IMG/VR virus record: IMGVR_UViG_3300036768_000870
Span: 1-24,276 of that record
Strand: one strand, 5' to 3'
DNA from: a virus
Length of the DNA stretch: 24,276 bases
The notes beneath the pieces are model-generated. The model did not search any database. It worked only from the letters and a program-made list of their open reading frames with translations, and had not been told where the DNA came from. The position numbers were made by a program, and so were the translations under genes. Positions 3,549-23,202 of the stretch are shown here, piece after piece; position 1 is the first letter of the stretch; every line of letters starts with the position of its first letter.

Positions 3549-5209
3549 CACACCAGCTCCACCACGGTGCACTCGCCGCGGGCGCCCTTGCCACCGGCGC
3601 CGGATGCGAAGCCGTTGCGGCTGCCACCGCCGCCACCGCCGCCACCGCCCGGTGCGTTGCCGTCGGCGCCGGCGCCTGCGGCGGCCGCAACGCCCGCGCC
3701 GCCGCCACCGCCGCCGTCGCCGGCCGAGCTGTCGGTGCGCGCCGTACCCACCGAGCCGGCAGACCCGACCGAGCCGCCGGCGCCGCCAAAGCCCGTCAGC
3801 GTGGTGATCGGGCCGGCAGCCAGGCCCGTAGCGCCCCCGGCACCGCCCGGCTGGCCGACGTTACTGGTGTCGATCGAGCCGCCGCCACCGCCGCCACCGC
3901 CACCGCGCTGGCTGCGCAAGCCGGCGCGCATGCTGGTGCCGTTCTTGCCGTTGCCGCCGCCGCCGCCAGCACCATCACCGCCGCACGCCGGCGCGCCGAT
4001 GCGGGCCTGGAACAGGCGGCCGGACAGCCAGATCTGGGAGCCGGAACCGGCGTCCGTCGGCACGCCGCCAGGGTCTGTGTTGACCGCTGTCGAGGTCAGG
4101 ATGTCGCCTGTGCTTGAGCTGGCCTTGCCGCCGTAGGCCGTCAGATAGCTGCCGAAGGTGCAGTTGCCCCCGTTGGTGCCGGCTGCCGCGGCCGTGCCGT
4201 CCACCGTGGCGCTGGCCGCGCCGTTGACCTGGGCCGGGATGGTGACGGTAACGCTGGTGCCGGCCGCAATGCCCGTCAGCAGCCGCTCGACCTGCTCGCC
4301 GCCGCCACCCCCTGGGCCGCCGTCGCTCGCCACGCCAGACGCCTGCCTGGCGCCCGCGCCGCCCGACGCGCCGGCGCCGGTGCAGCGCACCAGGGCTTTC
4401 ACCCTTGGCGGCTGAATCCAGGTGCCCGAGGCCGTGAACGTGATGACCCCGCCGACCAGCGGCACGGTGTTGAACGTCGTGCCGTCGCAGTTGGCATCGC
4501 GCACCGCGCCCGGGTACAGCGCGTAGCTGTTCAGCCCGTCGACCTGGCCGCTGGTGTGCTGCAGCGTGATCACGCCGGTGCCGGCGTTCCAGATCCGCGT
4601 CTCCCAGTTGGCCCCCGCCGTGCCCGGCGCCGGCAGCGTCAGGGTGAACGTGCCCGTGCAGACCACCAACTTGCCGTTGTCGCCGGCGGCCAGCGTGGTG
4701 TTGCTGCTCAGGTTCAGGCGCGGCCGGCTGTTGCCACTGGCGCCGGTGGGGCCGCCGGGGCCGGTGGCACCCACCACGCCGGAGACATAGATGTCCCACA
4801 GGCTGATCGTGCCGGTGCCGGTCACCGCGGTGACGTTGATCGTCAGCGCGCCGGTGCCCGAGTTGTAGGCCGTGATCTGGCCTGTCATCGTGTTCGCGCT
4901 GTTCGCGTGGTCGACGACGATCAGGTACTGGCCCACGCCCCATTGCCGCCCTGTCGACGCGGTGAAGCTCTTGCTGCCGGTGCCGATGGCCACGCTGCTT
5001 GAGCTCGTGCCCACCAGGCTGGCCGCGCTGCTGGCCGCGCTGGCTGCGGCGGCGGCCGCCGCGCTGGCGCTGGTGGCGGCCGCGGCGCCCACCGCGGCCA
5101 CGTCGGCCACCATGGGCAGCAGCCACAGCTTGTGGCCGCCGTTGCGCATGTCCTTGGACGCGGTGCCGTCGTCGCTGTAGGTGTTGCCGTTGATCGTGGT
5201 TTGGGTCAT
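3548..5209 (-). CDS. tail fibre / receptor-binding protein with glycine-rich C-terminal domain
   Basis: This 553-aa protein has clear modules: an N-terminal part (1-35, MTQTTINGNTYSDDG), an Ala/Ser-rich probable coiled-coil stalk (about 36-64), a beta module with VAIGTGSKSFTASTGRQWGV (about 71-145), a short collagen-like stretch GATGPGGPTGASG (about 147-158), a further beta region, a segment VITFTASGTWIQPPRVKAL like the lead-in of glycine-rich fibre domains, then a C-terminal half packed with Gly runs (GGPGGGGG, RGGGGGGGGGS, PGGGGGGGGGS). Gly-rich fibre tips can form stacked polyglycine-II helices with variable loops that bind the host surface, as in phage S16 Gp38. Host recognition is inferred from this and from its position as last large tail gene. 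Confidence 0.85.
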   Translation of the reverse strand: MTQTTINGNTYSDDGTASKDMRNGGHKLWLLPMVADVAAVGAAAATSASAAAAAAASAASSAASLVGTSSSSVAIGTGSKSFTASTGRQWGVGQYLIVVDHANSANTMTGQITAYNSGTGALTINVTAVTGTGTISLWDIYVSGVVGATGPGGPTGASGNSRPRLNLSSNTTLAAGDNGKLVVCTGTFTLTLPAPGTAGANWETRIWNAGTGVITLQHTSGQVDGLNSYALYPGAVRDANCDGTTFNTVPLVGGVITFTASGTWIQPPRVKALVRCTGAGASGGAGARQASGVASDGGPGGGGGEQVERLLTGIAAGTSVTVTIPAQVNGAASATVDGTAAAAGTNGGNCTFGSYLTAYGGKASSSTGDILTSTAVNTDPGGVPTDAGSGSQIWLSGRLFQARIGAPACGGDGAGGGGGNGKNGTSMRAGLRSQRGGGGGGGGGSIDTSNVGQPGGAGGATGLAAGPITTLTGFGGAGGSVGSAGSVGTARTDSSAGDGGGGGGAGVAAAAGAGADGNAPGGGGGGGGGSRNGFASGAGGKGARGECTVVELV

Positions 5210-14291: not shown

Positions 14292-15725
14292 TCAGAAGCC
14301 CGGCGTCAGCGCGTCGGACATCACCGAGAACGACGCGCCGTGGCGCACGCCGATGTCGCAGGTCTGGAAGGCGCGCAGTAAGACGTCACCGGTGGTGAAG
14401 CCGGTGCTGTCGTACGGGTTGAGCGCGATCTCGGTGACGCCCCACATGGCGATGAACAGCTCCTGCCAGTTGCCGTAGATCAGCTCGGAGCAGATGCCGT
14501 TGCTGGTGCCCTTGGTGAGCGTGCTGCGCAGCTGCTGCGACTCGGCGTAGGGCGAGCCCTTGACGCGGTCGGGGCTGCCCGCCACCAGGCCGCCCTGCGG
14601 GTCCCACAGGTACTGCCCGGTGCTGGCCTTCAGCGTCGACAGGTAGCCTATGGCCTTGCTGTTCATCGCGTAGGCGGCAGCGGCCTGCGGCGCGTTGGCG
14701 AACTTGGTGGCGTACTTCAGCGAGATCAGGTGGTCGAAGGTCAGGTTGGCACCGTTGGTGCCGCCGACCACCGAGATGACGCCGGCCTGGTTGACGATGC
14801 CGGTGGGCTGGTTGCTGGCGCCGCTGCCCGACAGCGCGGCCAGGTCCAGGCCCAGGGCGATGACCGCCATCAGGTCGGCACGGGCCAGCATCTCGATGGC
14901 CGGCGTGGCCTGCAGCAGCATCAGGCGCGACATCTTGCTGAGCGCGCCCACGGTCTTGGGCCGCAGGCTGACCTTGTCGAAGGTGGCTTCGGCCTCAGTC
15001 GGTGCGCCCGATTCCGCCACCCAGTACACGCCGGTCTGCGAGATCTGGCGCGGAATGTCGACGTTGCCCACCAGGCCGGTGAGGTAGCGCGCGCCCAGGA
15101 TGGCGGTGACCATCTGGTTGCGCAGCACCTCGACGAAGCTGTCGTACAGCAGCTGCGTCTGTACCAGGTTGCCACCCTGCGCGGCGGAGCCCACCAGGTA
15201 GGGCGCGCGCTTTTGCACCTTGCCCTGCGTGGACAGCATCTCCCACGCGCGCAGGTGCTGCTCGTCGGGTGCGAAGGGCAGGTCGTTGGGCAGGAAGAAG
15301 CTGCTGCCGCCCACGTCGCGGCCGAGCTGCTTGGCCAGCTCGTTGGACACCTCGCGCTCGAAGCCGGCGGCCTTCCAGTCCTGGCTGATGAGCGCGCGCA
15401 CGGCGCGCATGTAGCTGAAGGACCGGCGCTCCTTGTCGGTCAGGTCGACGCTGGCGCCGCCCACCGGCGTGGTGCGCGCCGCGCTCTTGTCCAGCGCTTC
15501 GAGGAACTGCGCGCGGGCCTGTTCAATGGTGGCGCCGCCTTCGATCAGCAGGTCGGCCAGGGTCTGGTTCTTCCAGCGCTCGCCCAGCGCGCGGATGCCG
15601 TTCTGGCGCTCGCGCTCCTGGCGGCGCAGGTCGTCCCAGTTGGGTGCGGCCGGCGGCGTGGCCGGGGCAGCCGCGGCTGCAGCGCCGCCACGCTGTTCGA
15701 GGGTGGTGTCAGTTGCTTGGTTCAT
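14292..15725 (-). CDS. possible separate scaffold-capsid product from an internal start
   Basis: Within the fusion gene, ATG 15725 (Met212, MNQATDTTLEQRGG) is preceded by AAGGAAA with 5-7 nt spacing, better than the ribosome site of the full-length start. It falls exactly between the protease domain and the scaffold-like region, after the linker STEGK. Starting here gives 477 aa, the usual size for an HK97-type capsid precursor. This would let the phage make many capsid subunits and few protease fusions from one gene. The site is seen; its use is inferred. Confidence 0.45.
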   Translation of the reverse strand: MNQATDTTLEQRGGAAAAAAPATPPAAPNWDDLRRQERERQNGIRALGERWKNQTLADLLIEGGATIEQARAQFLEALDKSAARTTPVGGASVDLTDKERRSFSYMRAVRALISQDWKAAGFEREVSNELAKQLGRDVGGSSFFLPNDLPFAPDEQHLRAWEMLSTQGKVQKRAPYLVGSAAQGGNLVQTQLLYDSFVEVLRNQMVTAILGARYLTGLVGNVDIPRQISQTGVYWVAESGAPTEAEATFDKVSLRPKTVGALSKMSRLMLLQATPAIEMLARADLMAVIALGLDLAALSGSGASNQPTGIVNQAGVISVVGGTNGANLTFDHLISLKYATKFANAPQAAAAYAMNSKAIGYLSTLKASTGQYLWDPQGGLVAGSPDRVKGSPYAESQQLRSTLTKGTSNGICSELIYGNWQELFIAMWGVTEIALNPYDSTGFTTGDVLLRAFQTCDIGVRHGASFSVMSDALTPGF

Positions 15726-16358
15726 GGTCTTTCCTTCGGTCGATGGTTCGGCGGCTGCCGAGGGCTGCGTGCGTGCCCGTGTTACCACGTGCACGCGCGT
15801 CTGCGTGGCCTGGTCGGCGCTGCGGCCGACGCCCACGGTGGGGTCGGCCGGGATGCTGAGCAGGGAGATCTCGAACGCCTCCCACCGCTGGGCGGTGTAG
15901 ACGTCGTCGGGGCTGAAGCGGTCGGGGTCGTCGGTCTCGCAGACGTAGTCCGACGCGCGGTACATGAAGCTGACGTTGCGGATGATCCGGTCCTGCACCT
16001 GGTTCATGGCCCAGGTGCCGCGCTCGTCCTTGCCGAAGCGCACCAGGGCGTGGCCGCGCTTGTCGTCGCCGATCCATGCGCGCTCGATCACGCCCAGCAC
16101 GTCGTCGGGGTTGTGGCCCCACAGCAGGCTGCCGCCGTCGTTGAGGCGGGCCAGGTCGGCGGCGCCCGGTGCGTGCGACAGCACTTCCTTGCCGAACCAG
16201 CGGTCGACCGGGTATTCGCTGCTGAAGGTCAGCTCGACGGTGCGGGCGTCGGTGTCGACGTTGGGCGCAAAGTCGGCGCGAAAGGACAGCACCCGCTTCT
16301 GCGGGCCCAGTACGTCCCCGTCCTGCAGGCGGCGGTGTTCGATGGCGCTGTGTTGCAT
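14292..16358 (-). CDS. HK97-type prohead protease fused to major capsid protein
   Basis: The 688-aa product has an N-terminal S78 prohead protease (about 1-180) with His82 in WGHNPDDVLG, Ser130 in IIRNVSFMYR and Glu163 in EAFEISLLSIPADP; the H-48-S-33-E spacing matches HK97 protease. A short linker leads to Met212. Residues about 212-310 are a charged helical scaffold-like region (DDLRRQERERQNGIRALGER), and the rest is an HK97-fold capsid protein (SQTGVYWVAESGAPTEAEAT, RPKTVGALSKMSRLML, GVTEIALNPYDSTGFTTGDV). The protease should trim the delta region during head maturation. Fusion of the two is known in some phages but less common than separate genes. ATG 16358 begins MQHSAIEHRRL. An internal start may yield capsid alone. 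Confidence 0.92.
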   Translation of the reverse strand: MQHSAIEHRRLQDGDVLGPQKRVLSFRADFAPNVDTDARTVELTFSSEYPVDRWFGKEVLSHAPGAADLARLNDGGSLLWGHNPDDVLGVIERAWIGDDKRGHALVRFGKDERGTWAMNQVQDRIIRNVSFMYRASDYVCETDDPDRFSPDDVYTAQRWEAFEISLLSIPADPTVGVGRSADQATQTRVHVVTRARTQPSAAAEPSTEGKTMNQATDTTLEQRGGAAAAAAPATPPAAPNWDDLRRQERERQNGIRALGERWKNQTLADLLIEGGATIEQARAQFLEALDKSAARTTPVGGASVDLTDKERRSFSYMRAVRALISQDWKAAGFEREVSNELAKQLGRDVGGSSFFLPNDLPFAPDEQHLRAWEMLSTQGKVQKRAPYLVGSAAQGGNLVQTQLLYDSFVEVLRNQMVTAILGARYLTGLVGNVDIPRQISQTGVYWVAESGAPTEAEATFDKVSLRPKTVGALSKMSRLMLLQATPAIEMLARADLMAVIALGLDLAALSGSGASNQPTGIVNQAGVISVVGGTNGANLTFDHLISLKYATKFANAPQAAAAYAMNSKAIGYLSTLKASTGQYLWDPQGGLVAGSPDRVKGSPYAESQQLRSTLTKGTSNGICSELIYGNWQELFIAMWGVTEIALNPYDSTGFTTGDVLLRAFQTCDIGVRHGASFSVMSDALTPGF

Positions 16359-18973: not shown

Positions 18974-21127
18974 TTACCAGCGGTTGATCGAGAAAGCGCC
19001 GCCGCTCTTGCGTGACTGCCATCCACGCCGCGTCTGCTTGGACGCGGCGGGGGGCTTGGGCCCTGCGGGCGGCGGCGGTGGTTCATGGGTCCGGGGCACC
19101 GCCGCATGTGCTGGAGTAGGCACGCCTTGCGGCGGCGGCAGCATCTCAGCCCCGGCACTGCTCACCTCGGGGGCCGTACCCGTCAACGGCCCTTCGAGAT
19201 CCGGTTGTTCTTGCGATTCGTCGTTGTCCAGCAGCGTGCGCTGCACCAGGCGCTGCTCGAGGGCGGCCCAGTGCACGTCTCGCATCAGGTTGGTCTTGCA
19301 GCTGCGGGCTGCGTGCAGGCAGTACACCTCGCAGTCCAGCACCTCATTGCGGACGCCTGCAAGCTTCTGCCACGTCTTGCGGTAGCGGTTCGTTCGGCTC
19401 GGTGCCTTCACTTCGCTGACCAACTGCTCCCAGTAGTCGGGCCGTACCTTGGCGTACCAGTGCAGCACGCCAGGGCCGCGGCCTTCGAGCTGCAGCCGGT
19501 TCTCGAGGATCAGGTCCTTGGCCCGGGTCGTGCCGACAATGAAGGTGTCCAGGCCGAACTTCAGCGGTTTGTGCCTGCGGCCCAGGTCCACTTTCTTCGG
19601 CGGCGCGAAGATCTCGCGGCGGTCGTCGGTCTGCTCCGACGCGCCCTTGCCCGCCATGTAGCCGCGATGCCTGCGCGGCCGCACGTAGGCGTGGACGACT
19701 TCGGTGCGGTTGCCGTCTGAGCCGTCGATCGTCACCGCCCGGATGCGCAGCTTGGCGCCGCTGGCGTGTTCGAAGTCCCGCGTCAGCAGCGCGTCCAGGT
19801 CGGCCCAGGCGCCGGCGTTGGGCACCAGCGTGGACCCATGGAGCTCGCCCCAGTACACGAGCCAGCTTTCCTCGCCGCGGCCCCAGGCCCGGATGATCAC
19901 CGCCAGGCGATCGTGCTGGACGTCGACGCCGGCCGTCAGCATCAGCCCACCCCAGGGCACCGTGAACTCGGGGTAGTCCTCAGCGCGTGTCGCCAGCGCG
20001 TCGGCCTTGGGCATGTCGCTCTGGTACACCCACGGCAGGCCGAGCGTCGAGTTCCAGAACGCGATCTTGGCGCCCAGCTCGCCGGTGGCGGCCTCGTGCT
20101 CGGCCGTCAGGTACTTCTCGACCAGGCGGGTGAGGCTGCTGTCCGGGAAGCTGGAGTACAGCTCGTTCAGATAGAAGCCGGCCACGCCGTGGAAGTCAGC
20201 GGCGGCCTTCCATCCAAAGCCCAGGGCCTCAGCCTGGCGCACGTTTCGGTTCTTCTGCGCGTCGTTCCACACGCTGCCGCAGTGCGGGCAGACGTAGGCC
20301 GCGGTCTCGGGCAGCGCCTTGCCGAACACCGCGTGCGAGGCGGTGGGCCCGTCTTGCCACTTGACGTTGTCCCAGTTCAGGACGTGGGCCTCGCCGCAGT
20401 CGTGACACGGCACCCAGTAGGCCCGCTGGTCAGACGTCTGCATTTCCTGCACGATGGCGCTGACGCCGGCAACGGTCGGCGTGCCACCGATCAGGATCTT
20501 GCTGTCGTGGAAGCTCTTGACCCGCTCCTCCGCCAGCTTGATCGAGTCGCCCTGCCCCTTGATGTTCAGGTTGCAGTCGTCCGGCTCTTCCACGCACACG
20601 CGCTTGATGGGCGTGGACTTGACCCCGTCGGTGCTGTTCGATCCGAACAGCATCAGGAACCCGCCCGGGAACTGCTTCAGGTCCTGCTTGTTGTCGGCCG
20701 AGCGCGACTTCAGATTGACCAGCGGCCGCAGCGCGGGCGTGGCCTCGATCATCGGCTCGAGCTTCAGCTCGGTGTACTTCTTGTAGGTGGCCTCGCGCGG
20801 AAACATGATAGCCATCGACGACGGGTCGGTGTGGATCACGTACCCGACGTAGTTGTTCATCACGCCGTCGGTCCACCCCACCTGCGCGGACTTCTGGCAC
20901 ACCACCTTGCGCACGCGGCGGTCGTTGATCGCCTCCAGGATGCCCCGCAGGAAGGGCGTGATCTGCAGCGAGAAGCGGCCGGGCAGCGCCGTGTTCTGCG
21001 CCAGGTGCCGGTACCGCTCAGCCCACTGCGCGACCGAGATCCGCGGCGGCGGCGCCAGCCGGGCCAGGCAACGCCGCAACAGCTTGCGCAGGATCTGCGC
21101 GTCTGTCGGTAGTGTCGTCTGGGTCAT
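18974..21127 (-). CDS. terminase large subunit (GpA family)
   Basis: This 717-aa motor protein cuts concatemeric DNA and pumps it into the prohead. The N-terminal ATPase shows the GpA-type Walker A QKSAQVGWTD (about residues 78-87), Walker B region KRVCVEEPDD (about 175-184) and coupling motif ILIGGTPTV (about 211-219). Two Cys pairs follow (PCHDCGEAH at about 240-248; YVCPHCGSVW), a zinc-ribbon-like pair known in GpA terminases. The C-terminal nuclease part includes LTAGVDVQHDRLAVIIRAWG and AVTIDGSDGNRT. The end is Pro/Arg-rich. ATG 21127 lies inside the small subunit gene and lacks a good ribosome site, which suggests coupled translation. Confidence 0.95.
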   Translation of the reverse strand: MTQTTLPTDAQILRKLLRRCLARLAPPPRISVAQWAERYRHLAQNTALPGRFSLQITPFLRGILEAINDRRVRKVVCQKSAQVGWTDGVMNNYVGYVIHTDPSSMAIMFPREATYKKYTELKLEPMIEATPALRPLVNLKSRSADNKQDLKQFPGGFLMLFGSNSTDGVKSTPIKRVCVEEPDDCNLNIKGQGDSIKLAEERVKSFHDSKILIGGTPTVAGVSAIVQEMQTSDQRAYWVPCHDCGEAHVLNWDNVKWQDGPTASHAVFGKALPETAAYVCPHCGSVWNDAQKNRNVRQAEALGFGWKAAADFHGVAGFYLNELYSSFPDSSLTRLVEKYLTAEHEAATGELGAKIAFWNSTLGLPWVYQSDMPKADALATRAEDYPEFTVPWGGLMLTAGVDVQHDRLAVIIRAWGRGEESWLVYWGELHGSTLVPNAGAWADLDALLTRDFEHASGAKLRIRAVTIDGSDGNRTEVVHAYVRPRRHRGYMAGKGASEQTDDRREIFAPPKKVDLGRRHKPLKFGLDTFIVGTTRAKDLILENRLQLEGRGPGVLHWYAKVRPDYWEQLVSEVKAPSRTNRYRKTWQKLAGVRNEVLDCEVYCLHAARSCKTNLMRDVHWAALEQRLVQRTLLDNDESQEQPDLEGPLTGTAPEVSSAGAEMLPPPQGVPTPAHAAVPRTHEPPPPPAGPKPPAASKQTRRGWQSRKSGGAFSINRW

Positions 21128-21563
21128 ACCCGCTGAGCTTGGTCAGGAACTCGTCGAAGGTCTCTGCGATCAGGTCGCGCTTGGCCTCGACGCCGGAGGT
21201 CTGTTCGAGCAGCTGCGCCAGCCGGTTGACCTCGGAGCGCAGGAAGGACCGGGCCGCGGCGACCATGCCGTCCCACATGGGCTCGACCTGGTCAGCGGGC
21301 ACCAGCTGGCCGCGCTTCTCCGCCAGCTCGAGCTCCTCGCGATCGCCGCGCAGCCGGTCGAGCCGGTCCTTCGGCGACTCGCCCTTGACCTTCTCCAGCT
21401 CGTGCTGCACGCGCCACTCGATACAGGCCTTGCTGTCGTACTCGCTGGCCACGCCCGGCTTGCCGCGCACCGCGATCGGCATGCCCTGCTCTTGCCATTC
21501 GGCGATCGTCTTGACGGTCACTCCGAACAGGTCGGCCAGCGCTTCCCTGCTGCTGATTCTCAA
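21018..21563 (-). CDS. terminase small subunit (Nu1-like)
   Basis: The 181-aa product begins MRISSREALADLFGVTVKTI, a winged helix-turn-helix for cos/pac binding (VTVKTIAEWQEQGMP, as in lambda Nu1), followed by SEYDSKACIEWRVQHELEKV, a charged helical region (DRLDRLRGDREELELAEKRG) and a self-assembly region. TTG 21563 is preferred because GAGG lies 8 nt upstream; GTG 21572 (adding three residues) overlaps that ribosome site. The last 36 codons overlap terL by 110 nt and are Ala/Pro/Gly-rich, suggesting a flexible tail. Confidence 0.88.
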   Translation of the reverse strand: MRISSREALADLFGVTVKTIAEWQEQGMPIAVRGKPGVASEYDSKACIEWRVQHELEKVKGESPKDRLDRLRGDREELELAEKRGQLVPADQVEPMWDGMVAAARSFLRSEVNRLAQLLEQTSGVEAKRDLIAETFDEFLTKLSGYDPDDTTDRRADPAQAVAALPGPAGAAAADLGRAVG

Positions 21564-21593
21564 GATAAGCACCTCATGTGCACGTCAACTCTG

Positions 21594-21651: not shown

Positions 21652-22233
21652 TTACGGGCGGGTCGATCTTGTCTGCCAGTAGCGGGTTTCCTGCTGCAGG
21701 ATCGACGGGAACTTGTCGACGATGAAGGCGCGCAGGGCCTCTTGCACTGCGGAGTTCACGATCGCTTCGGGGATCGAAGGACCGAACAACTCGCGGATGG
21801 GCAGCTGGTGCCAGCTGCTGCGCACCTTCACGTGCTTGCCGCCCGCCTCGCGCACATACACACCGGTGTGCCCGTTGGGCATGGTGGCGATGAACGCGTG
21901 CTGGATGACCTTGCGGCCCTTGAGCACGTTGACGCTGACGCCGGCCTTGACCTGCCTGGCGCCGTACTTGATCAACGGAATCGGGCGGCCCGAGGTGACG
22001 ACGCTGGCCACCAGGTTGTCGGGCGATGCACGCATCACCCGCATGGCCGCCTTGATGTCGCCCGCCTTGAGGTTGTAACCCGTGTCGCGGATCTGGCGCG
22101 AGGCCTGCACCTTGGCCTGGTCAGCGGTCTTGTTCAGCGCCCTGACGGTCGCCTTGTCCTGCAGATCCTCGGCCAGCGCCTTCATGTCCAAGAAGGCCTG
22201 GTTCAAGGTGTGCCGCACGTCCACCTTGATCAT
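21652..22233 (-). CDS. minor tail protein, gpZ-like
   Basis: The 193-aa product (lambda gpZ is 192) begins MIKVDVRHTLNQAFLDMKAL. The order of features fits gpZ: helical KATVRALNKTADQAKVQASR, ADIFR-like basic helix TGYNLKAGDIKAAMRVMRAS, beta part IPLIKYGARQVKAGVSVNVL, AFIATMPNGHTGVYVREAGG, and a C-terminal helical end PIRELFGPSIPEAIVNSAVQ. Z-type proteins act at tail completion, allowing tail joining and DNA injection. ATG 22233 is chosen for GAGGG 7 nt upstream over GTG 22239. Its place before terS rather than between FII and U is unusual. Confidence 0.8.
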   Translation of the reverse strand: MIKVDVRHTLNQAFLDMKALAEDLQDKATVRALNKTADQAKVQASRQIRDTGYNLKAGDIKAAMRVMRASPDNLVASVVTSGRPIPLIKYGARQVKAGVSVNVLKGRKVIQHAFIATMPNGHTGVYVREAGGKHVKVRSSWHQLPIRELFGPSIPEAIVNSAVQEALRAFIVDKFPSILQQETRYWQTRSTRP

Positions 22234-22332
22234 GTGCACACCCTCGCGCAGCGTGCCTGAAATGTACTCAAAAGCTCTATTCCGTAAAACTCCCCCGTGC
22301 GCTGCAGCGCCTCCACGCGCCTGCGCTCCGCG

Positions 22333-22458
22333 TCACGCGCGCGCTGGCGATCGGTCGGCGAACGATCCGGCCCGCACCTTGTGCGCCTCGCAGCGGCCAC
22401 TGCCGTCGCGCACCAGCACGCCGCATTGGCTGCACGGTTTCGGGGCTGAAGATGGCAT
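22333..22458 (-). pseudogene. remnant of an HNH endonuclease gene (N-terminal zinc-knuckle only)
   Basis: ATG 22458 opens 41 codons starting MPSSAPKPCSQCGVLVRDGS, with CxxC and CEAH that would form a zinc knuckle, then KVRAGSFADRSPARA and a stop. This matches the first 35-40 residues of HNH endonucleases that lie just before phage terminase genes, but the HNH catalytic motifs are missing. In the +1 frame downstream, helical sequence DRQRARDAERRRVEALQRTG follows, suggesting a deletion plus frame change. It could alternatively be a real mini-protein. HNH nucleases near terminases assist DNA packaging in HK97-like phages. Confidence 0.55.
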
Positions 22459-22464
22459 GGGCGA

Positions 22465-22499
22465 AGAAAAGCCCCGCGCGGATCGCACCGGGCGGGGCT
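22465..22499 (-). terminator. Rho-independent terminator after the Q-like gene
   Basis: On the minus strand AGCCCCGC (22499-22492) pairs perfectly with GCGGGGCT (22477-22470), loop 14 nt, followed by TTTTCTTC counted from 22470. It lies 31 nt after the Q-like stop and only about 20 nt after a predicted promoter start. A strong terminator ahead of the whole packaging operon is expected to need antitermination, as at lambda tR'. Confidence 0.7.
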
Positions 22500-22526
22500 G
22501 GGGTCTCGTGTGGCCGAGTTTGCCGG

Positions 22527-22554
22527 AATCTACCCCAACTTGTCTTTGTTGCAA
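22527..22554 (-). promoter_or_regulatory. weak sigma70-like promoter (pR'-like candidate) at the end of the Q-like gene
   Basis: TTGCAA (22554-22549) and TAGATT (22532-22527) are separated by 16 bp; each matches its consensus at 4 of 6 positions. The -10 overlaps the stop codon of the Q-like gene and the terminator follows directly, as lambda pR' follows Q. The match is weak by itself; position is the main support. Confidence 0.3.
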
Positions 22555-22913
22555 AAACCACCGGCCGCCGGCTGTGCCAGCAACTCGGCCAGCCTGGCGT
22601 GCGCAGCTTCGATGCGCGCGTACAGCGTCGGCCGCTCACAGCCCAGCTCCTCGCACTGTCGCTCGATCGGCCCCCGCTTGCAGTAGTGCACGATGACTGC
22701 GTGGTGCAGCTTGTAGGACAGATGGTCCACAGCCCACGCCGTCTGCCACACGTCGGTCGACTTCGCCACCTTGATCGACGGCACCACGCCGCCGCCTGGC
22801 GGAGACCAGGCCGGGTGCAGCACGCTCATCGTGGGGTAGCCCGACCCATCGCCCACCGTGCAGGCCTCGGCCCAGCGCTGCAGGCGCGCTTCGATTCGCA
22901 CATCACGTGCCAT
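22530..22913 (-). CDS. candidate late regulator, Q-like/sigma70-region-4-like HTH protein
   Basis: The 127-aa product begins MARDVRIEARLQRWAEACTV, then GDGSGYPTMSVLHPAWSPPG, and has a C-terminal helix-turn-helix-like region (about 78-115: IVHYCKRGPIERQCEELGCE, TLYARIEAAHARLAELL) like region 4 of sigma factors. This design recurs in small phage proteins sited just before the terminase operon and often annotated as antitermination Q-like. Directly after it come a weak promoter and a strong terminator. ATG 22913 overlaps the preceding gene by 11 nt. The DNA-binding fold is likely; the antiterminator role is inferred from position. Confidence 0.6.
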   Translation of the reverse strand: MARDVRIEARLQRWAEACTVGDGSGYPTMSVLHPAWSPPGGGVVPSIKVAKSTDVWQTAWAVDHLSYKLHHAVIVHYCKRGPIERQCEELGCERPTLYARIEAAHARLAELLAQPAAGGFCNKDKLG

Positions 22914-23202
22914 GAGACGCCTCCGGCTCGCGGATCTGCAGCAGCGCCTGCGTGCGGGTCAGCCTGGCGGCCAAGAAGTCGGCTGCGGCGGCGTCACCGG
23001 CCAGCGGCACGCCCACCGTCAGCGGCCCCTCGCAGGCGAAGAACCAGCCGGGCTCAAGGTTCAGCACGCCGCGCCGCCAGCACTCGTCCACATGCGCATC
23101 GCCCAGCACGCGGCGCTTCTCGCGCACAAGGCGGGACACGCCAGGCATGTGGGCCGGCAGCCAACCCCAACCCTTCCGCTGCTCTGATCCACCCTTGTCC
23201 AT
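22903..23202 (-). CDS. conserved small phage protein (hypothetical, 99 aa)
   Basis: The product begins MDKGGSEQRKGWGWLPAHMP and contains GVSRLVREKRRVLGDAHVDE, CWRRGVLNLEPGWFFACEGP, then TRTQALLQIREPEASHG. I recognise this as a type of small protein common just before the Q-like gene in prophages of Betaproteobacteria, but it has no known function. ATG 23202 has GAGG 10 nt upstream; an in-frame alternative is the Met of HMPGVSR. It overlaps the next gene by 11 nt. Confidence 0.65.
   Translation of the reverse strand: MDKGGSEQRKGWGWLPAHMPGVSRLVREKRRVLGDAHVDECWRRGVLNLEPGWFFACEGPLTVGVPLAGDAAAADFLAARLTRTQALLQIREPEASHGT

Follow-up and report, generated by a model that had tools for sequence, protein, structure and literature searches.

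A probable Q-type antitermination switch, with a second late promoter at an apparent mosaic junction, ahead of the late genes of a virus

Genes and control elements at the locus

The window, by which we mean the whole stretch of DNA analysed, is a 24,276-base viral record, and all elements of the putative switch lie on its minus strand. Q1 (22530-22913) is an open reading frame for a 127-aa Q-like antiterminator, an HTH protein so designated from relatives that are Q-like by annotation or profile and from a predicted fold resembling that of the phage 21 Q protein (21Q). A small ORF of unknown function (22903-23202, minus strand) stands before it and has relatives at the same place in two other loci (L002, L009).

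Q1 ends with a TAG stop codon (22532-22530) inside a promoter, p1, which consists of a -35-like hexamer TTGCAA (22549-22554), a 16-nt spacer (22533-22548) reading CAAAGACAAGTTGGGG, and a -10 hexamer TAGATT (22527-22532). The stop codon thus forms the first half of the -10 hexamer. Each hexamer agrees with consensus at four of six positions, and a promoter scan with a 9-of-12 threshold did not find p1. The spacer, with CAAAGAC at 22548-22542, is the putative Q-binding element, judging from HTH/spacer covariation in relatives. Transcription from p1 is expected to start near 22521, and a -10-like hexamer, CAAACT (22517-22522), is a candidate pause element by the conservation of its CANNNT form.

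An intrinsic terminator, t1 (22462-22499), comes next, recognised by folding and by a terminator detector. Its GC-rich stem (22499-22470) has arms AGCCCCGC (22499-22492) and GCGGGGCT (22477-22470) forming eight perfect pairs with three further inner pairs, and is followed by the T tract TTTTCTTC (22469-22462). The folding energy is -24.7 kcal/mol (z -2.65; as good in 2 of 200 shuffles), and the scan tool did not list t1 because the tool's loop limit is 8. A further terminator-like hairpin lies within the 3′ end of Q1 (22560-22584, minus strand), its T run overlapping the -35 region of p1.

Leftwards from t1 run the late genes: a Minor_tail_Z-like gene (21652-22239; PF06763, E 9.2e-12), which is the first behind the second promoter p2 described below, a Nu1-like terminase small subunit (TerS, 21018-21572; PF07471, E 9.3e-11), a GpA-like terminase large subunit (TerL, 18974-21127; PF05876, E 2.9e-78, and PF20454, E 1.7e-77), then portal, an S78 protease/capsid ORF, tail tube, lysozyme and DUF2514. 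Three of the nine late-region ORFs scanned had no Pfam match. The protease/capsid ORF (14292-16358, minus strand; 688 aa) combines S78 prohead protease and capsid domains in a single reading frame. At the left end of the window, on the opposite strand, lies an ORF (2-577) that looks, by motif, like a DNA cytosine methyltransferase.

A preliminary description of this DNA had proposed the end of a regulator, a weak promoter overlapping its stop codon, a perfect GC-rich terminator, and head, tail and lysis genes beyond. The sequence confirms this order on the minus strand, with the promoter as weak as its four-of-six hexamers and its absence from the scan imply, and with Pfam matches to portal, capsid, tail tube and lysozyme among the genes that follow. 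The promoter and terminator of that description stand; the pause element, p2 and the mosaic junction had escaped it.

Relatives of Q1 and the conserved promoter block

Searched directly, Q1 gave weak results. It resembles PA0613_fam (NCBIfam NF051483; E 2.5e-9) over nearly its full length, at 37.4 bits, below the curated cut-off of 100, and searches for the PA0613 family in 369, 7 and 1 genomes gave no member above cut-off. It matches phrog_4300, of unknown function, in the PHROGs search. No Pfam family was reached above cut-off, nor any Q family in Pfam or PHROGs, including PF06530 (Phage_antitermQ) and, at E 0.1, PHROG 79 (anti-termination protein Q-like). Four of 16 relatives match PF06530 weakly (best E 0.016), and phrog_79 is matched at E 0.001 by 26 of the 67 members of A6, an alignment of chosen proteins that includes Q1. 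Against the PDB, phmmer with Q1 and with the Q protein of L002 gave nothing meaningful; the A6 profile matched mostly sigma factors, its HTH half matching sigma region 4, and the 32 matches listed include neither a Q nor an AlpA chain.

A viral scan with the single Q1 protein found no relative, and tblastn of Q1 against phage records gave none at E 1e-5 and four unrelated-looking records at E 10. Seven viral loci came from a search with the neighbouring Minor_tail_Z protein, and alignment searches yielded 13 viral loci, then three more, one of which was known already. The gene order of L002 is that of the window (helicase, small ORF, Q, Minor_tail_Z, TerS, TerL). A profile of class 1, the window's class as defined below, matched 224 of 399 genomes of one order, a count set aside because most of the listed matches span only the half that resembles sigma region 4.

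Behind the Q genes of most relatives stands a conserved block of DNA that takes two forms. Class 2 reads GTTTTAC-N17-TACATT-TCAGG-CANNNT, and class 1 reads TTTTGCAACA-N14-TAGATT-C(C/A)GG-CANNNT; from the T run to the CA the two are equal in overall length. The window has a single copy of the p1 form, TTTTGCAACA-N14-TAGANTCNGGCA, and none of 100 shuffles has any. By eye, the block is present at 10 of the 13 viral loci found by protein (none was seen in L018, L021 and L022), and it recurs at L123 and L133 but at none of the other nine of 11 genome loci that are more distant. Our literature search, which reached few subscription papers, found no description of the block.

Scans for class 2 by DNA alone, with patterns derived from the loci found earlier by protein, returned 73 viral and 18 bacterial stretches, 91 places in all. 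At 84 of these a Q-like ORF ends between -23 and +23 nt from the motif start (35 at +14), compared with a Q-like ORF within 400 nt at 2 of 134 control positions; five of the 84 (L040, L060, L072, L085, L092) share a contig with a protein used in the profile, and related phages are non-independent observations. Among the seven misses, L122 has just 131 nt of upstream sequence, and L108, L111 and L118 belong to other phyla and are likely chance. The remaining three (L043, L103, L094) carry the motif with no Q-like ORF found upstream, so that stand-alone copies of the motif exist; these may be separate Q targets or recombined modules. The class-1 scan gave five stretches, each with a class-1 Q ORF; three of these contigs were previously known, and the presence of TTTTGCAACA in all five was imposed by the search pattern. 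The ORF of L031 ends shortly ahead of the motif, whose DNA is conserved nonetheless, for which reason selection seems to act on the DNA itself. Of the 18 bacterial stretches, 13 carry titles of Burkholderiales and two are identified no further than Proteobacteria or beta proteobacterium; three come from other phyla and are likely chance.

The viral class-2 search pattern ended at GGCA and left the T of CANNNT unspecified, and this T is nevertheless present in all 66 distinct viral class-2 matches, while the other bases that follow vary. Bacterial matches were left out of this count because the bacterial pattern specified the T. The window and the five class-1 stretches also have CANNNT with its T.

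Terminators were sought at 71 class-2 loci, namely the 84 less eight without the script's start motif and five with identical proteins. A first detector overlooked visible terminators, with counts of 43/71 versus 44/180 at -8 kcal/mol and 40/71 versus 11/180 at -15. A second detector, which was written after the first one's result and hence not blind, and was run once, looked for a hairpin followed by a T-rich tail no more than 150 nt from the -10. It found one at 64 of the 71 loci; among controls it did so in 22 of 240 segments taken at random and in 21 of 203 lying behind other ORFs. These counts are rough in both directions (the detector overlooks hairpins visible by eye in L017, L019 and L031). 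The median distance from the -10 to the start of the stem is 49 nt in class-2 loci; in the window this distance is 28 nt. Three of four class-1 loci (window, L016, L030, L031) passed the terminator detector.

Covariation between protein and DNA was examined at 75 loci, the 71 together with four of the eight without the start motif. The more two loci differ in HTH sequence (residues 80-104), the more the 5′ halves of their spacers tend to differ (r 0.54 between the two sets of distances), whereas residues 1-19, 20-52, 53-79 and 105-113 give 0.31-0.39; with residues 1-79 held constant, the partial correlation for the HTH is 0.37. The 3′ half of the spacer shows a weak contrast (0.33 for the HTH versus 0.12-0.31 for the others). 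Linkage alone is a poor account of this pattern, because residues 105-113, which are encoded nearer to the promoter, give only 0.31. The covariation supports, and does not prove, the view that the HTH reads the spacer between -35 and -10.

AlphaFold2 models of Q1 had a mean pLDDT of 73.4 when built from 16 sequences and 80.5 when built from 67, and residues ~20-50, the loop region, are poorly defined in both. For both models VIA-align ranks phage 21 Q first (Z 9.9 to 8.4 for the former, 9.9 to 8.0 for the latter), with nearly the whole protein aligned in the top rows (6p18, Z 9.9; 6jny, Z 9.0 and 9.4) and 9-14% identity in the alignments. Sigma region 4 follows at Z 8.4 and 8.8 over ~60-70 residues, about one Z unit or less behind in most rows, and Foldseek returned sigma domains for both models, with no Q21 among its best 50 matches. 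AlpA was not among the matches listed by either program, which excludes nothing. The 21Q and sigma matches fit a single reading because helices H3-H6 of 21Q resemble sigma region 4, while its N-terminal ring lies in the RNA exit channel, according to PMC6606751. The predicted fold of Q1 thus appears to resemble that of phage 21 Q most, by a narrow margin over sigma region 4. The preliminary description had called the locus lambda-like, which fits the layout; by fold, the appropriate comparison is with 21Q and not with lambda Q.

A second promoter and an apparent mosaic junction

A second putative late promoter, p2 (22250-22289, minus strand), reads TTTTAC-N17-TACATT-TCAGG-CACGCT, an exact class-2 match that arose in none of 100 shuffles. 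From the end of its putative pause hexamer, CACGCT, it is 10 nt to the GTG that opens the Minor_tail_Z ORF and 16 nt to an ATG in the same frame. Up to 400 nt from the -10 of p2 the second detector found no terminator; the first had reported a hairpin there, inside Minor_tail_Z, but a weak one (-13.0).

Between t1 and p2 lie pieces of two genes. The 5′ part of an HNH endonuclease gene (22333-22458, minus strand; phrog_144, E 1.1e-4 for the containing ORF) is cut short, and its DNA similarity to relatives stops near 22378. The segment 22355-22293 (minus strand) is probably the C-terminal tail of a second, class-2 Q protein (Q2): its score of 49 was equalled by none of 300 shuffles and by one of 600 window peptides, modest evidence that is helped by position. 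The best match to this remnant is L040, on a contig whose TerL (L013) is 82% identical to that of the window. The region is best read, from these alignments, as Q1-p1-t1-HNH′ joined to ′Q2-p2-Minor_tail_Z, and looks like a mosaic of two late switches produced by recombination. As such, the window would illustrate the swapping of late-control modules, with a spare late promoter left behind.

Among 167 sequences scanned with a tandem-promoter pattern widened so as to match p1, only the window, which also figures among them as L001 and L029, carries a pair of such promoters within 3 kb, and its tandem, half-guarded arrangement was found nowhere else among the loci compared. The second promoter may be a relic, a leaky start or a second Q-loading site. 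Q1-type proteins also precede promoters of the class-2 format in L041, L046, L079 and L107.

Proposed mechanism, alternatives and known systems

The locus is very probably a Q-type processive antitermination switch for the late genes, as the preliminary description had proposed in outline when it suggested that the HTH protein loads on RNA polymerase at the promoter and lets it pass the terminator. This reading is well supported because of comparison, and comparison only: the pairing of Q genes with the promoter, the conserved CANNNT, the terminator, the spacer/HTH covariation and the Q21-like predicted fold, together with the gene order and promoter geometry, are all established in that way and by the sequence itself. 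From them we infer binding, pausing, loading and read-through as follows. RNA polymerase would start at the weak p1, near 22521, and be paused just downstream by sigma holding the -10-like CAAACT. Without Q1, polymerase would halt at t1, some 50-60 nt further on. When Q1 is present, its sigma-region-4-like HTH would bind the spacer between -35 and -10, the paused polymerase would take up the N-terminal helix and loop of Q1 in its RNA exit channel, and, once loaded with Q1, would pass t1 into the late operon. The reading also draws on the phrog_79 matches in the family, the annotation of the VarioGold relative and the like layout of the AlpA promoter. Against it count the absence of a Q-family match for Q1 itself, the sigma domains listed by Foldseek and the narrow VIA-align margin, the three loci found by protein and the nine distant genome loci in which the block was not seen, the exceptions in VarioGold described below, and the three motif copies without a Q gene.

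Other accounts of the same elements fare less well. Part of the motif in the window encodes the C-terminus of Q1, and p1 falls below the promoter-scan threshold, so that chance matches, or constraint from coding where the Q ORF ends, have to be considered; but this candidate is contradicted by the shuffles, none of 100 giving the promoter motifs, by ORF ends that vary between -23 and +23 nt relative to an unchanged motif, and by L031, where the motif is kept outside the ORF, and its probability is close to nil. Alternatively, Q1 could be an ordinary activator or sigma-like factor recruiting polymerase to p1 through its HTH, with t1 merely ending an early transcript. The weakness of p1 and the match of the HTH half to sigma region 4, by both profile and fold, speak for such a role. 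An activator would need neither the -10-like hexamer nor the terminator just behind the promoter, however, and both are conserved; the 21Q fold match, moreover, takes in the N-terminal half of Q1 too, which makes recruitment of this kind a very unlikely explanation.

It is also rather unlikely that p1-t1 is bypassed, with the late genes transcribed mainly from an unguarded p2 and Q1 no longer decisive, a state of affairs that would be compatible with a working p1. Such a bypass would draw on p2 being an exact class-2 promoter, with its pause hexamer ending 10 nt before the first gene's GTG and no terminator found behind it, whereas p1 and t1 retain all features of their class and class-2 promoters in relatives are guarded by a terminator in 64 of the 71 loci. 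As an elaboration of Q-type antitermination at p1, one doubtful but conceivable possibility is a two-stage late switch arisen by recombination, in which Q1 is loaded twice, once at the guarded p1 and once more at the unguarded p2. If this were true, late-gene expression would combine a tightly Q-dependent supply with a boost that meets no terminator. Joined to it, and held just as tentatively, is the idea that the family consists of Q/DNA pairs in which HTH and spacer co-evolve, readable across many phages.

Switches of this kind are already known from 21Q, lambda Q and AlpA. The phage 21 system (PDB 6P18, 6P1A-C, 6JNX, 6JNY) likewise has a late promoter, a -10-like pause and a terminator; 21Q uses two direct-repeat TGAGCA subsites (PMC6606751), which the p1 spacer lacks. 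AlpA of Pseudomonas aeruginosa, with PalpB and tB, resembles p1 in its CANNNT hexamer and the terminator close behind, and has between -35 and -10 a binding element to which the putative one of p1 would correspond (PMC9371919, PMC7969949). Its promoter carries CACGAT at -1 to +5, where a change of the A or the T harms antitermination (PMC9371919), and tB begins 54 nt from the start (PMC7969949). The GGGACG binding element (ABE) of AlpA, in contrast, is absent from the p1 spacer. The present comparison points to a wide, thinly annotated family of Q-type antiterminators whose promoter-pause-terminator signature can be recognised from DNA alone, and whose numerous natural HTH/site pairs lend themselves to a study of promoter choice by Q proteins.

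A homologue of the L002 Q protein (33.6% identity) is VG_p50 of the Variovorax phage VarioGold, annotated 'antiterminator Q protein', a name that rests on an HHpred match to PF06530, the passages of PMC9658991 examined describing no promoter. The VarioGold locus shares GTTTTAC, TAGATT and a downstream HNH gene, and differs in a pause hexamer, CAGTCG, without the T and in a terminator 238 nt past the -10. In L002 itself, the spacer (within 3904-3960) has CGGACG in the same register as the GGGACG of AlpA, and the HTH has KSAMH where the AlpA paper names the contact residues K138, S139, T140 and H142.
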